The notes under the pieces are model-generated. The model worked only from the letters and a program-made list of their open reading frames with translations. It did no database searches and had not been told where the DNA came from. A program made the position numbers and the translations under genes. Positions 43,207 through 48,991 of a DNA stretch of 64,000 bases are shown piece after piece (within the stretch, counting starts at the first letter, position 1; each line of letters begins with the position of its first letter). Source of the stretch: an uncultured Paracoccaceae bacterium (GTDB lineage: Bacteria > Pseudomonadota > Alphaproteobacteria > Rhodobacterales > Rhodobacteraceae); NCBI GenBank assembly GCA_947500825.1, contig CANMTR010000002.1:248001-312000 (forward strand), given 5' to 3'.

Positions 43207-44880
43207 TCAGACCTCGATTGTCTTGGGGCGGCGGCGGTCGAACCAGGCCACGATGATCACCCGCGTGACGAAGATCGCGGTGAAGACCGAGGTGATGATC
43301 CCCAGCGCCAGGGTCACGGCGAAGCCGCGCACCGGGCCCGATCCCAGCATGAACAGGATCGCCGCGATAATGAATGTGGTGATGTTGGCGTCCACGATGG
43401 CCGACAGCGCCCGCTCGTAGCCCTGGGCGATGGCCCGGCTCGGCCCGCGGGCCGATCTCTGCTCCTCGCGGATGCGCTCGAAGACCAGCACGTTGGCGTC
43501 CACCGCCATGCCGATGGTCAGCACGATCCCCGCGATGCCCGGCAGGGTCAGCGTCGCCCCGATGGCGCTCAGAAGGCCGAAGATCAGCCCGACATTGATC
43601 AAGAGCGCGATGTTGGCGAAGAGGCCGAACAGCCCGTAGGACAGCCCCATCATCACCATCACCGCCACGAAGGCGACGATGCAGGCGATGCGCCCCGCGT
43701 CGATGGAATCCTGCCCCAGCTCGGGGCCGATCGTGCGCTCCTCGAGGAACGACAGCTCGGCGGGCAGGGCGCCCGCCCGCAACAGGACCGCGAGGTTGGT
43801 CGAGTCCTCCACCGTGAAGTCGCCGGTGATGATCCCGTTTCCGCTCGGTATGTGGCTCTGGATCACCGGCGCCGAGATCACCTCGCTGTCGAGCACGATG
43901 GCGAAGGGCGAGCCGATGTTCTCGGCCGTGTAGTCGCCGAAGGCCCGCGCCCCCGTGGGGTTGAACCGGAAGCTCACGGCGGGGCGGTTGTTCTGGTCGA
44001 AGGCGGGCTGGGCGTCGGTCAGCGTCTCGCCCGAGACAACGGGCGTGCGCTCGAGCGCGTAGAACGCCCCCTCCTCGTCGATGGAGGGCAGCAGGATGTT
44101 GCCCGGCCCCGGATCGGCGTTCCCGTCCGAGGTGCGGTTGACCACCGGGTGGAAGGTCAGCTGCGCCGTGGTCCCGATCAGCGACTTCAGCTCCTCGGCC
44201 GAGCCGATGCCGGGCACCTGGATCAGGATGCGCTCGGCGCCCTGGCGCTGGATGTTGGGCTCGCGGGTGCCCACCTCGTCGATCCGGCGGCGGATGATCT
44301 CCAGGCTCTGGCGCACCGTGCGGTCGTCGGTGGCGGCGCGCTCGGCCTCCGACAGGGCCACGCTCATCACCGCGCCGTCGTCGGTCTGGGCGCCCTCGAT
44401 CACCAGGTCGCTCTGGCCCGCGGCCGCGCCCGATCCCACGCGCTGCGACAGGGTCCGGGCGATCTCCATGGCGCGCGCCAGCCCCTCGGGGTCCGACAGG
44501 CGCACCTCGAGCACGGCGTCGCCGCCGTCCACGCGCCGGATGGTGCCGACCTCGGAGCGCGCGTCCCTCAGGGCGTCGCGCAGCTCCGGCCAGAGACTGT
44601 CCATCCGCTGGGCATAGACCTGCTCGACTTCCACCTCCGCCAGGAGATGCGCGCCGCCCCGCAGGTCGAGGCCGAGATTGACCAGACCGCCGGGCAGCCA
44701 CGACGGCCACGCCCCCGCGGCCGCCTCCCGCTCGGGGGTGGCGCCCGTCTCGACGATGGCGGCGCGGGCGTCGTTGGCCTGCTCGACCCGCCCGTAGAAC
44801 AGGTTCGGCAGCGCCATCAGCAACCCGAGAGCCACCAGCCCCCAGATGACGACGCGCTTCCACAGCGGGATCTGCAGCAT
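43207..44880 (-). CDS. secD: Protein translocase subunit SecD
   Basis: A 557-residue partner of SecF. One N-terminal helix, a large periplasmic domain with LGLDLRGGAHLLAEVEV (about 70-86) and VQVPGIGSAEELKSLIGTTA-like block, then five helices with GIAGIVLTIGMAVDANVLVFERIREE read around residues 448-473. It is likely cotranscribed with yajC (32 bases upstream) and secF. Confidence 0.96.
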   Translation of the reverse strand: MLQIPLWKRVVIWGLVALGLLMALPNLFYGRVEQANDARAAIVETGATPEREAAAGAWPSWLPGGLVNLGLDLRGGAHLLAEVEVEQVYAQRMDSLWPELRDALRDARSEVGTIRRVDGGDAVLEVRLSDPEGLARAMEIARTLSQRVGSGAAAGQSDLVIEGAQTDDGAVMSVALSEAERAATDDRTVRQSLEIIRRRIDEVGTREPNIQRQGAERILIQVPGIGSAEELKSLIGTTAQLTFHPVVNRTSDGNADPGPGNILLPSIDEEGAFYALERTPVVSGETLTDAQPAFDQNNRPAVSFRFNPTGARAFGDYTAENIGSPFAIVLDSEVISAPVIQSHIPSGNGIITGDFTVEDSTNLAVLLRAGALPAELSFLEERTIGPELGQDSIDAGRIACIVAFVAVMVMMGLSYGLFGLFANIALLINVGLIFGLLSAIGATLTLPGIAGIVLTIGMAVDANVLVFERIREEQRSARGPSRAIAQGYERALSAIVDANITTFIIAAILFMLGSGPVRGFAVTLALGIITSVFTAIFVTRVIIVAWFDRRRPKTIEV

Positions 44881-44912
44881 GTCTCAGGCCCTTCCGGGAT
44901 GTGGTGTGGCCG

Positions 44913-45239
44913 TCAGCCCTCGGCGGGCTCGGTCTTATTGCGCACGGTCGCGATGGTCGACTTCACCACGCGCACCTTCACGTTATCGGCCAGCTCGACC
45001 TCGACCTCGCCGTCGTCGCGCACCTTGACTACCTTGCCGATCATGCCGCCCGCGGTCACCACCTGGTCGCCGCGGCGCAGGGCCTCGATCATCTTCTGGT
45101 GCTCCTTGACCTTCTTCTGCTGCGGGCGGATCAGCAGGAAATACATGATCACGAAGATCAGGATCAGCGGCACGAAGCTGGTCAGGGCGCCTGCGGCACC
45201 GCCACCGGCGGCCTGCGCGAATGCGGGCGTTGCGAACAT
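44913..45239 (-). CDS. yajC: Preprotein translocase subunit YajC
   Basis: A 108-residue single-span protein that joins the SecDF-YajC complex. The helix FVPLILIFVIMYFLLIRPQQ is directly followed by KKVKEHQKMIEALRRGDQVV and the small beta domain GGMIGKVVKVRDDGEVEVEL. The ATG at 45239 has GGGAAGAGA upstream. It heads the leftward run yajC-secD-secF-Mth938-ccmABCD-ccmG; its promoter must lie in the 126-base gap to the divergent protease gene. Confidence 0.96.
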   Translation of the reverse strand: MFATPAFAQAAGGGAAGALTSFVPLILIFVIMYFLLIRPQQKKVKEHQKMIEALRRGDQVVTAGGMIGKVVKVRDDGEVEVELADNVKVRVVKSTIATVRNKTEPAEG

Positions 45240-45365
45240 CTCTCTTCCCTCGGGTCTGGGGCGCGCGCCCTTCGGGCGGGCGCGCGGTCGGGTGAAAATC
45301 GGCCTCTCCCTAGCTTTGCCCCCGGGTCTTGTCCAGCAAGGCCCGTCCGGGCGAGACTGCGCGCC

Positions 45366-45953
45366 ATGATCGTCCGCGCCCTCCTCCTGGCCTGCCTCGC
45401 CCTGCCCGCCGCCGCGCAGGAGGCCCCCGCCCCGCCCGACGGCGTGCTCAAGATCGGCCGCGGGGGCTCGGGCTGCACCGCCTTCCTCGTCGCCCCCCAC
45501 GCCGCGATGACGGCCGCCCATTGCGTCGGCGGCACCCCCGTCGAGCTTCTCGCCGGGTGGGAGGGGGGCCGCGTGCGCCAGTCCCGCCCCGGCACCGACC
45601 CGACGCGCCCCGCGCTCGAACCCCGCATGGCCAACCGCTACCACGCCGACCAGGTGCGCCTGGCGCTTCCCCGGCCCTTCTCCGGCCTCGCCCCCCTCGC
45701 CCCCGGCCCGGCCCCCCGGCCCGGCACCCGGGTCGAGGTCCCCGCCTACCCCCGGGGCGCCAGGGCGCGGCAGACCGCCAGCTGCATCGTGACCGAGCGT
45801 CCGGGCACCGAGATCGTGCTCGACTGCCCCGCACGGGCGGGCATGTCCGGCGCGCCGATCCTGCAGGGGGGCCGCGTCGTGGGCATCCTCACGAACCGCA
45901 TCGGGCGCGACGCCAGCTTCGGCACCGCGCTCGCCCCGGACCTTCTCGACTGA
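45366..45953 (+). CDS. Exported trypsin-like serine protease
   Basis: A 195-residue small S1-family protein with a signal peptide ([18 protein letters not shown]). The catalytic His is in MTAAHCVGG (about residue 59), Asp probably in [10 protein letters not shown], and Ser in [14 protein letters not shown], a GMSGAP variant of GDSGGP. Cys pairs fit the chymotrypsin-type disulfides. Probably periplasmic or secreted; target unknown. Compact size and no PDZ domain separate it from DegP. It precedes serS by 56 bases. Confidence 0.82.
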
Positions 45954-46009
45954 CGCCCTTTCCCCCGTCCGCCCCTTGCGGCATATCGCGCCCCAAAAGG
46001 AGGCCGCCC

Positions 46010-47284
46010 ATGCACGACATCCGCCAGATCCGCGACGACGCCGACGCGTTCGACGCCGCCATGGCCCGGCGCGGGATCGCGGGGGCCTCCGCCCCCCTCC
46101 TGTCGCTCGACGAGGCCCGGCGCGCCGCCATCCACGCCGCCGAGACCGCCAAGGCCCGCCAGAACGCCGCCTCCAAGCAGGTCGGCCAGGCCAAGGCCCG
46201 GGGCGACGAGGCGGAGTTCGAGCGCCTGCGCGCCGAGGTCGCCGCCACCAAGGCCGAGCTGGCCGAGCAGGAGGCCCGCGCCCGCGACCTCGACGCCGAG
46301 CTGGCCCAGGCGCTCGTGGCCCTGCCCAACACCCTCGCCCCTGACGTGCCCGAGGGCGCCGACGAGGCCGACAACGTCGAGATCAAGCGCCACCTCGACC
46401 CGCCCCAGATGCCCTTCGCCCGCGAACATTTCGACATCCCCGCCGCCCGGCCCGGCTTCGACTTCGAGGCCGCCGGCCGCCTCTCGGGCGCCCGCTTCGC
46501 CGTGCTGAAGGGCCAGGTCGCCCGCCTCCACCGGGCGCTCGCGCAGTTCATGATGGACACCCACGTGGACCGCAACGGCCTGGCCGAGACGGTCACCCCC
46601 GTCCTGGTGCGCGACGAGGCCATGCTGGGCACCGGCCAGCTCCCGAAGTTCGGCGAGGACAGCTACCGCACCACCAACGGCTGGTGGCTCATCCCCACGG
46701 CCGAGGTGACGCTCACCAACACCGCCGCCGGGCAGACCTTCGACGAGGCCGACCTGCCCCGCCGCATGGTCGCCCATACCTTGTGCTTCCGCTCCGAGGC
46801 CGGCTCTGCGGGCAAGGACACCGCCGGCATGCTGCGCCAGCACCAGTTCGAGAAGGTCGAGATGGTCTCCCTCGTCACACCGGAGGAGAGCGAGGACGAG
46901 CAGCTCCGCATGCTCTCCTGCGCCGAAGGCATCCTGGAGGCGCTCGACCTGCCCTACCGCACCGTCAAGCTCTGCGACGGCGACACCGGCTTCGGCGCGC
47001 GGCGCACCTTCGACATCGAGGTCTGGCTCCCGGGCCAGGGCCGCTACCGCGAGATCAGCTCCATCTCCACCTGCGGCGACTTCCAGGCCCGCCGCATGAA
47101 CGCCCGCTACAAGCCCGAGGCCGGCGGCAAGCCCCAGTTCCTCCACACCCTGAACGGGTCGGGCCTCGCCGTGGGCCGCGCGCTCATCGCCGTGCTGGAG
47201 AACGGGCAGCGCGAGGACGGCAGCGTCGTGGTGCCGGAGGCGCTGCGGAGCTATATGGGGGGTGTAGAGAGTATTGCTTCATGA
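46010..47284 (+). CDS. serS: Seryl-tRNA synthetase
   Basis: A 424-residue class II synthetase charging tRNA(Ser) and tRNA(Sec). The N-terminal antiparallel coiled coil spans about residues 28-100, rich in Ala/Glu/Lys. Class II motif 2 appears as [20 protein letters not shown], and motif 3 as [17 protein letters not shown] near the C-terminus. AAAGGAGG precedes the ATG at 46010. The last residues [11 protein letters not shown] differ from the usual alphaproteobacterial ending and coincide with the drop in GC content, so the final codons may have been rewritten by the inserted island. Confidence 0.96.
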
Positions 47285-48298
47285 ATTGTCGCAAGATGAC
47301 TGCTCGCGACAACCAGCTGAAGAAGCGAGCATCCAACCGGCCAATTACTCTAATCACCGCCTCATTTGGCATCATTATATTTCTCTGGCTCACAAACGTT
47401 TTCGTAGCAGCTTCAGGCATCAAAAACGACTTTATTGAACCTTCCGGCGTATTTGCTGATACGTTTGGAGTGACCAACTCCCTTTTTACAGGCCTTGCAT
47501 TTGCAGGTTTAGTTGTATCTCTATTTCTTCAGAGAGATGAGCTAAAAATACAAAAAGAAGACCTAGAAGCCACTAGACCTGAACTCGCCGCTGCAGCGGA
47601 GCAAGCTAAAAAACAGAATGAAAATTTGGAATTGCAATCTTTTGAAACAACCTTCTTCACTTTGCTTGACCATTTAGATAAGAGTGCAAACACATTTCGA
47701 GTGGCTGAACCAGGCCTTGGAAGCCACGAGATTTGGAATGGGCGAGATACTCTTTCAGAGATGATGTCGCAGATTAAAAATACCGCGGTTCAAGCGCGAA
47801 AATATCCAAATAGTATTAGCTTTCAAGAAGGAGCCTCACAATGCGCGGAAGCCTTCGAGTTTGTGGTTAATCGGTATGGAGAGCAGATTCAGAGCTACCT
47901 GAGAACCGTTACAGTAGTGCTTGAATTTCTACACCATTACAACGATGATTCAGCGTCATTCTACGCGAAACTACTGAGAGCAAAACTATCAAAGGATGAG
48001 AAAATTATTTGCTTTTTATATGCGGCATCGCAACAAAAAGGCGCCTTAACAGAATCTATTGAAAAGTTTGATATAATGAGGGGAATGCAAAACACCTACC
48101 ACGGAATACCCATATGCTATATTGCCGCGGAGGTCGAAAGACTATATCGAGGTCGAGAAAAGCCAGATTTGGCGGTTTAGAAGGCGGCTGAGTTGCCGAG
48201 AGTCTATTCTCGAATTGTAAATGGCGGCTCCGCTATTTGCCACGACGCTGTAAATAGCTTCCACACCCAATCCACAATTTCTGTCCGGCCATAACACA
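47261..48298. other. AT-rich genomic island (single-gene, probable horizontal acquisition)
   Basis: Two 60-base lines counted inside (47341-47400 and 47641-47700) have 24 and 21 G+C (40% and 35%), while the flanks are near 70%. The shift begins within the last codons of serS and ends just before the start of the gene at 48299. It carries one gene and a 118-base non-coding tail (48181-48298) with a small hairpin CGAGAG/TTCTCG at 48197-48212. No transposase, integrase, terminal inverted repeat or clear target-site duplication was found. Confidence 0.75.
47281..48180 (+). CDS. Putative phage abortive-infection protein (putAbiC-like)
   Basis: A 299-residue protein. Two hydrophobic helices lie near the N-terminus (about residues 23-42, [20 protein letters not shown]; and 61-82, [19 protein letters not shown]). 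A Glu/Lys-rich coiled coil (about 83-115) leads into a soluble domain starting [20 protein letters not shown], followed by [29 protein letters not shown] and [19 protein letters not shown]. That order matches the putative phage abortive infection family (putAbiC, PF16872), judged from memory. Such proteins are thought to sense infection at the membrane and stop growth. Codon use is AT-rich unlike all neighbours. The ATG at 47281 overlaps the serS TGA, giving coupled translation from a housekeeping gene. Confidence 0.75.
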
Positions 48299-48991
48299 AT
48301 GCCCTACCTCACCCTCCTCGCCGCCCTGGCCTTCGTCCTCTCCCCGCTCGTCTCGGGCAGCTTCGGGGGCTTCGACGCCTCCGCCTTCCCGGTCCCGCAG
48401 GAGGAGCCGCCCGTGCAGCCCGCGGGCTACGCCTTCGCGATCTGGGGGGTGATCTATCTGTGGCTGCTGGTCCACGCCGCCTTCGGCGCCTGGGCGCGCC
48501 GGGGCGACCCCGCATGGGCGCCCACGCGCCTGCCGCTGACGATCAGCCTCGCCGTGGGCGCCTTCTGGATCCCCGTCGCCAACGCCTCGCCCCTCTGGGC
48601 CACGCTGATGATCTGGGGCATGCTCCTGCCCGCCCTCGCCGCCCTCCTGCGCGCCGGGCGGGCCGACCGCTGGCTCCTGCGCGTGCCCCTGGGCCTCTAT
48701 GCCGGGTGGCTCACGGCGGCCTCCTGCGTCTCGGTCGGGCTGGTGCTGCCCGGGTGGGGGATCGTGAGCCAGGTCGCGGCCGCCTGGATCGCTCTGGCGC
48801 TGGCCGCCGCCATCGCCGCCGCCGCGATTCGGGGCGGCGCCGGGCTGGCCTATGCCGGGGCCGCCGCCTGGGCCTTCGTCGGCGTCGCGGTGCAGAACTG
48901 GCCCGCCGCCCCGCTCCTCGCGGCGGTCCCCCTCGTCCTGGCGGCCGCCGTCCTCGGCCTGGGACTCCTCGTCCGACCCGGCCGCGCCTGA
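48299..48991 (+). CDS. TspO/MBR-related multispan membrane protein
   Basis: A 230-residue protein with about seven helices, longer than classical TspO (155). AGYAFAIWGVIYLWLLVHAA (about residues 42-61) matches the long tryptophan-rich TspO/MBR-related proteins of roseobacters, and the internal AVQNWPAAPLL segment fits as well. Function unknown; tetrapyrrole binding is only suggested by distant family membership. GC content returns to normal here. There is no visible Shine-Dalgarno before the ATG (ATAACACA), consistent with loss of its original leader when the AT-rich island was inserted. It converges with der. Confidence 0.8.
   Translation: MPYLTLLAALAFVLSPLVSGSFGGFDASAFPVPQEEPPVQPAGYAFAIWGVIYLWLLVHAAFGAWARRGDPAWAPTRLPLTISLAVGAFWIPVANASPLWATLMIWGMLLPALAALLRAGRADRWLLRVPLGLYAGWLTAASCVSVGLVLPGWGIVSQVAAAWIALALAAAIAAAAIRGGAGLAYAGAAAWAFVGVAVQNWPAAPLLAAVPLVLAAAVLGLGLLVRPGRA

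Follow-up and report, generated by a model that had tools for sequence, protein, structure and literature searches.

Lactococcal AbiP is reported to disrupt the replication of phage DNA as well as the switch from early to late (PMC4465916), and the title of a reference cited in PMC10127798 describes it as membrane-anchored and able to bind nucleic acid. PdpSau of S. aureus, which its authors superimposed on AbiP, is described in the same paper as bringing phage DNA replication to a halt, with altered polarity and permeability of the membrane (PMC10127798). Defence genes are also described at fixed chromosomal places, as in the P. aeruginosa hotspots cDHS1 and cDHS2, where many kinds of them lie between fixed core genes at a lower GC (PMC10250203), and for hotspots without an integrase double recombination in the flanking core genes has been described (PMC5635113).

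The stretch of DNA analysed here is 64 kb long and is referred to as the window. It includes an AT-rich segment between serS and the next gene that carries a single cargo gene (47281–48180), the product of which is designated P0001. We consider it probable, if by no means assured, that P0001 is an abortive-infection protein of the putAbiC/AbiP/AbiC type, anchored in the membrane, and that its gene fills a one-gene, core-flanked, integrase-free slot at serS. Like AbiP and PdpSau as reported, P0001 would combine an N-terminal membrane anchor with a cytosolic domain. PdpSau, as described (PMC10127798), has one membrane helix whereas two are predicted in P0001, and the model of P0001, which is helical almost throughout, lacks the OB-fold-like region that is reported for PdpSau. 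The PADLOC model for AbiP matches relatives of P0001, mostly over the cytosolic part, but not P0001 itself. The slot resembles cDHS1 and cDHS2, as these are described, in that varied defence genes are found between fixed core genes at a lower GC; it holds one or two genes in 0.9–2.7 kb with no mobility gene seen, whereas cDHS1 is given as 1–224 kb long with a median of 26 kb and includes multiple systems and mobile genes (PMC10250203). With the integrase-free hotspots, in the account available, it shares the lack of an integrase and possibly recombination in flanking genes (PMC5635113), which a scar in one genome of the genus (G394, below) fits, and it differs from them in a capacity of about one gene and in complete turnover between sister species at approximately 97 % identity.

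The AT-rich segment and its gene

The interval that separates the serS stop from the following gene (47285–48298) is 1,014 bp long and has a G+C content of 43.7 % (0.437), compared to 71 % in the flanks. Only three 500-base steps of the 64-kb window, covering 47001–48500, fall below a GC of 0.60 (0.594, 0.422 and 0.560), and the next-lowest step elsewhere in the window is at 0.626. A single long ORF, complete and on the plus strand, occupies the segment (299 aa, stop codon at 48178–48180), and its ATG at 47281 overlaps the serS stop (47282–47284) as ATGA. Its GC3 is 0.39, whereas that of both serS and the gene after it is 0.97. The features are as follows.

46010–47284, plus strand: serS, seryl-tRNA synthetase (Pfam PF00587 and PF02403), left anchor of the slot
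47252–47270, plus strand: left edge of the slot, TATATGGGGGGTGTAGAGA, which may also be a ribosome-binding site for the cargo gene
47281–48180, plus strand: cargo gene for the 299-aa putAbiC protein P0001 (PF16872, PHROG 8999, GC3)
47341–47412, plus strand: predicted first membrane helix, approximately residues 21–44, weakly conserved (hydropathy; AlphaFold2 helix 7–44)
47446–47532, plus strand: predicted second membrane helix, approximately residues 56–84, the most conserved part of the family (hydropathy, alignments, AlphaFold2)
47878–48087, plus strand: PF16872 putAbiC domain, residues 200–269, helical (Pfam; AlphaFold2)
48181–48298, plus strand: AT-rich non-coding tail of the insert, extending as far as the next gene's start codon (sequence)
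48299–48991, plus strand: right anchor of the slot, a conserved 230-aa predicted membrane protein (no Pfam family)

An earlier note on this DNA had described a fall in G+C over about 1 kb that carries one gene and no mobility gene at the end of serS. Both the fall and the single ORF are confirmed, though the start it gave, 47261, lies inside serS and the gene begins at 47281. The composition supports the reading of the segment as foreign DNA. No mobility gene was seen among the ORFs of the AT-rich stretch, the ORFs on either side of the cargo gene showed no sign of a phage remnant, and there is no tRNA within the 64-kb window. An RNA element was considered for the segment and rejected, as Rfam at E ≤1 gave one microRNA match far below its gathering score.

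The overlap of start and stop suggests that in this species the cargo gene would be read from the serS transcript. No promoter-like site was found on the plus strand between 47150 and 48450 in a scan for the sigma-70 consensus, the three that it found being all on the minus strand, and a consensus scan placed a terminator-like hairpin at 48168–48200, overlapping the start of the non-coding tail. The main ORF lies on the opposite strand in four of the 11 occupied slots of the genus (G398, G401, G405 and G400) and hence read-through from serS cannot be general.

P0001 and its relatives

P0001 matches the PF16872 (putAbiC) profile at 32.8 bits, above its cut-off of 22 (E 9.9e-8, residues 200–269), and scores 35.6 bits in the genome search, while PHROG 8999 matches residues 16–271 (E 2.4e-19). 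It shows no defining difference from the PF16872 family. The resemblance to putAbiC proteins that the earlier note had proposed for the 299-residue product is thus upheld by Pfam. That note had named two findings that would count against it, the lack of a profile match and the presence of the same gene throughout the genus with normal codon use; the first is answered by the PF16872 match and the second by the low GC3 and by the distribution, since PF16872 is found in one of the 14 genus genomes, the window's own. Searched against the PADLOC models, P0001 matched no family even at E 10, AbiP and AbiC included. A fold search of its model against the PDB and BFVD (viral predicted structures) returned nothing at E ≤1e-3, a sequence search against solved structures returned nothing meaningful, and no catalytic or nucleic-acid-binding motif was identified in the protein. 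Literature searches on putAbiC or AbiC found no tested mechanism for the putAbiC family.

Relatives of P0001, the window's own copy counted, are found in 15 of the 394 genomes of the family sample, and PF16872 in 13 of the 292 genomes of the order sample. The relatives' ORFs are lower in GC than both flanks at 14/14 family loci as extracted, the frame of one (L008) being doubtful. Viral contigs contain a further 92 relatives. Eighty of them were retained and, after removal of 13 (two duplicates and 11 under 230 aa), 67 remained; alignment A2 used 43 of these, and alignment A3 all 67 together with P0001 (68 members). One relative is in a filamentous Vibrio phage record. Among the A3 members, 45 match PF16872, 23 have no PF16872 match at E ≤1e-3, and 21 match DUF6082. 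At the same threshold 35 of the 68 match the PADLOC model for AbiP and nine that for lactococcal AbiC (PDLC02343), which P0001 itself does not match, and ten hand-picked members gave seven AbiP and five AbiC matches at E ≤0.01. The tie of P0001 to AbiP and AbiC, as far as profiles can tell, is one that runs through its relatives, which bridge both PADLOC models. An exact-peptide search for close relatives confirmed none in the genome or viral contig collections, and a search of E. coli genomes at the DNA level found none.

Four of the relatives deserve comment for their make-up or setting. In two family genomes (L010 and L012) the second membrane helix and the coil are kept and the C-terminal parts look different, as if one membrane module had been combined with different cytosolic domains. 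On a plasmid of Falsirhodobacter algicola (NZ_CP047294.1, L033) the putAbiC relative is approximately 5.5 kb from another gene annotated as an 'abortive infection family protein', and IS3 and a second transposase are close by. On a plasmid of Vibrio sp. HDW18 (NZ_CP049914.1, L034) it lies within small spaced genes (DUF3024, DUF3709 and a RelE/HigA pair), a run with the appearance of a Vibrio integron array, and in Vibrio the putAbiC gene may be moved about as an integron cassette.

Hydropathy reveals two hydrophobic stretches in P0001, near residues 21–44 and 61–85, and residues 1–21 carry a net charge of +6. In an AlphaFold2 model built from 44 sequences (mean pLDDT 84) a helix at residues 7–44 is followed by a single long helix at 56–137, two short strands and a helical remainder. 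The predicted layout is therefore two N-terminal membrane helices, a long coil and a helical cytosolic part, and membrane anchoring, a trait of AbiP, is predicted by both hydropathy and the model. The second membrane helix has the consensus GxFGDxFGxxxxLFSGLAFxG and runs on as one helix to residue 137. P0001 conforms at all 20 invariant columns of alignment A1 and has its patterns GDxFGxxxxLFSG (in the membrane helix), QxFE, YFR and R-A-x-L-S-x-x-E; it departs at two near-invariant places, with Ala at residue 59 where most have Gly and Leu at 207 where most have Phe. Invariant residues cluster in helix 2, with eight of 20 there in A1 and eight of eight in A3. In A2 and A3 this conservation is partly built in because the 80 viral relatives were found by one helix-2 pattern; A1 was assembled without that pattern and still has its eight in helix 2.

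The reported properties of AbiP and PdpSau make a membrane-anchored abortive-infection protein the best-supported working model for P0001. That it is a defence determinant, as the earlier note proposed, is likely and is supported indirectly, by the family, the viral-contig relatives and some of the cargo in sister species. P0001 would be held in the inner membrane by its two helices, and its cytosolic coil and helical domain would sense an intermediate of the phage, for which nucleic acid is the likeliest candidate in view of what is reported for AbiP. It would then stop phage replication, or depolarise the membrane via the conserved second helix, and the infected cell would stop before phage release.

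The serS slot in the genus

All 14 genus genomes have serS, and in 13 of them, the window included, it is followed by the right-anchor gene, the protein of which has no Pfam match at E ≤1e-3. These 13 genomes show both anchors, with accessory content between them that differs among genomes. One genome (G066), in which the contig ends inside the slot, was left out of the slot counts. The slot is occupied in 11 of the 13 testable genomes, by 916–2,701 bp with one or two genes, and is empty in G396 (71 bp) and G397 (25 bp). Its GC is at least 0.10 below that of the flanks in 9/13, a count that leaves out G394 (rounded difference 0.10) and G395 (0.09). Fisher tests in which relatedness was ignored gave p 3.4e-5 for occupancy and p 1.0e-6 for low GC. 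When 12 neighbouring gaps were compared in the window and five relatives, the gap containing the slot had a GC of 0.52–0.58 in all six genomes and the lowest value for any other gap >300 bp was 0.61. The cargo is as follows.

Window: putAbiC, by a profile match above the cut-off
G399: SMODS cyclase and 2TM effector, i.e. CBASS, by profile
G401: GmrSD_N/NsnA/PD-T4-2_A-like gene, by profile
G403: YaaC, not established as defence
G404: DUF5677, matching PADLOC PDC-S52 only at E 0.0077, not established as defence
G394, G402, G398 and G400: no family above the cut-off; HEPN matches in G398 are below it
G405: PEP-CTERM-like protein, below the cut-off, GC 0.59, looks unlike defence
G395: unassigned protein and mechanosensitive-channel protein, which look unlike defence

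This comparison of the interval between serS and 48299 across relatives, which the earlier note had called for, alters one part of its reading. The foreign composition stands, and the reading as an isolated island falls short, as the site is a slot that is recurrently refilled in the genus. What is new beyond that reading is the slot itself, which is core-flanked, integrase-free and of about one gene.

The turnover is best seen in the sister species G399 and G401, which are approximately 97 % identical on both sides of the slot and carry CBASS and NsnA-like cargo, respectively. They are 95.7–97.3 % identical over most of about 70 kb, with one 99-bp block at 84.8 %, and in 100-base steps identity is at least 94 % adjoining both slot borders. 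Five other length differences separate them, four essentially one-sided and one mixed (832 versus 485 bp, GC 0.55/0.60), and none is as AT-rich as the slot. The gap upstream of serS (44880–46010 in the window) measures 45 bp in one of the two and 1,710 bp in the other, the long version having a GC of 0.68 and no AT-rich signature.

A scar is present in G394, where a fragment of the next gene lies behind the cargo (274 bp, 93 % identical to G398) and is followed by a complete copy that is only 82 % identical. Between these genomes serS is 94 % identical, the aligned downstream kilobases are 71–85 % identical and nothing aligns upstream of serS. The simplest reading of these identities would be the transfer of a segment comprising serS, the cargo and the beginning of the gene after it, and the scar therefore favours exchange by way of homologous flanks over a single insertion event. 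Identity in serS also exceeds that downstream in the pairs G405/G402, G400/G401 and G400/G399; the flanks of the window and G404 show no recombination tract.

Hence cargo may be exchanged as short DNA by homologous recombination in the flanking core genes, with no integrase of its own, and could move via gene transfer agents or natural transformation. DUF2460, a gene of gene transfer agents, is found in 14/14 genus genomes and, though only suggestive, makes gene-transfer-agent particles, which carry a few kilobases, one possible vehicle. The genome to which the window belongs also has, beyond the window, a DUF2460 reading frame interrupted by a single TAG (G000:C2:17842-18453), together with a stop-free copy on C1.

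For the site in other genera, the best 80 of at least 555 confirmed loci were used, of which two ran off the contig. At 42 of the 78 left, the right anchor follows serS on the same strand inside the 6 kb retrieved, and at 36 it is not found there; eight of the 42 from this best 80 have at least 700 bp between the anchors and one is AT-rich. The AT-rich one, in Yoonia vestfoldensis (L123), is an independent insert of 2.5 kb with an Imm11 match between both anchors. When serS tails were compared between the 14 genus genomes and 78 of the best 80 of at least 555 other-genera loci, the C-terminal tail of the window's serS was found to be shorter than, and different from, the common tail of the other genera (...PYLGGKTRITAEGVLA).

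Alternative explanations and significance

The slot could also be explained if the tail of serS were an attachment site, used by a trans-acting site-specific recombinase or by tiny integrase-free mobile elements, each cargo having been inserted independently. The occupants do lie between the serS end and the start codon of one and the same next gene, the left breakpoints are no more than about 20 bp away from a motif rich in G, and occupant content is unrelated between species, as only 8/55 occupant pairs share a word of at least 13 letters (seven of 13–14 letters and, for G394/G398, one of 37). The left edge TATATGGGGGGTGTAGAGA, which has one match in the window, is closely alike in six of the 14 genus genomes (the window, G404, G399, G401, G394 and G398), and the left-edge motif has an imperfect direct repeat inside the window's next gene (47250–47263 and 48437–48450, 12 of 14 letters or 86 %). 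In the other eight genomes the left edge diverges earlier, and the left breakpoints differ from genome to genome. The longest exact direct repeat between slot end regions is nine letters in the 11 occupied slots, and between the two end regions compared in the window there is none of eight or more. Inverted matches of 11 letters are present in the window (47221–47231 and 48240–48250) and in G402, are different in sequence and probably arose by chance. Insertion by a transposon or integrase was rejected on these repeats, as the inverted matches are not common to the slots, and an integron cassette at a secondary site was set aside because no attC-like pair was visible by eye in 48181–48298 and shared ends are found only in G394/G398. 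Moreover, the G394 scar brings serS and next-gene sequence with the cargo, unlike an insertion by an integrase, and an attachment site appears quite improbable. The site might instead be a generic permissive intergenic one, with a defence content that mirrors whatever is mobile in general. We regard this as doubtful, because three of the 11 occupants belong to defence families by profile (putAbiC in the window, CBASS in G399 and the NsnA/PD-T4-2-like gene in G401) and the DUF5677, YaaC and HEPN-like cargoes, the last below the cut-off in G398, are of kinds often met in defence contexts. It would suit the cargo of G405 and G395, which is not defence-like, and the four occupants that match no family, and hotspots without mobile elements are described as common (PMC5635113).

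Two further explanations concern the protein. P0001 could be a phage-derived superinfection-exclusion or accessory gene left by prophage decay and without a present role, an origin with which its relatives in viral contigs and the span of the PHROG 8999 match (residues 16–271) agree. Since the surrounding ORFs contain no noticeable phage remnant and the window no tRNA, the frame is intact with all eight A3-invariant residues kept, and other slots hold non-phage defence systems, there is little to recommend such a leftover. That P0001 is a membrane protein unrelated to phage, such as a stress or transport factor, and that the Pfam name misleads, is unlikely, though the label putAbiC is itself 'putative', no paper was found that joins 'putAbiC' and 'abortive infection', and P0001 lacks a PADLOC match. 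Its relatives match the AbiP and AbiC models, its distribution is sporadic (13/292 and 15/394 genomes in the order and family samples), and the GC of the family relatives lies below both flanks in 14/14, with the reservation on the L008 frame given above.

The reading that we favour, a membrane-anchored abortive-infection protein in a one-gene slot, can tentatively be extended. It is possible that the slot is dedicated to one defence gene at a time, with serS providing plus-strand cargo with a transcript and a ribosome-binding site, and with exchange between species of a few kilobases with homologous flanks via gene transfer agents or transformation. This extension is kept tentative because only three of the 11 occupants are defence genes by profile and there is only one recombination scar. 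Mobile elements are the usual explanation for defence islands. If the extension is correct, a library of one-gene immune systems would rotate among the members of the genus with no mobile element involved, and the occupants of G394, G402, G398 and G400 would, by position, be new single-gene defence systems. With its known borders and known scar, the slot would make it directly testable whether defence genes are exchanged simply by recombination in core flanks, and it yields a guilt-by-position list of genes to screen for single-gene defence. For the putAbiC/AbiP/AbiC-like family, the most conserved part is a membrane helix and not an enzyme site.
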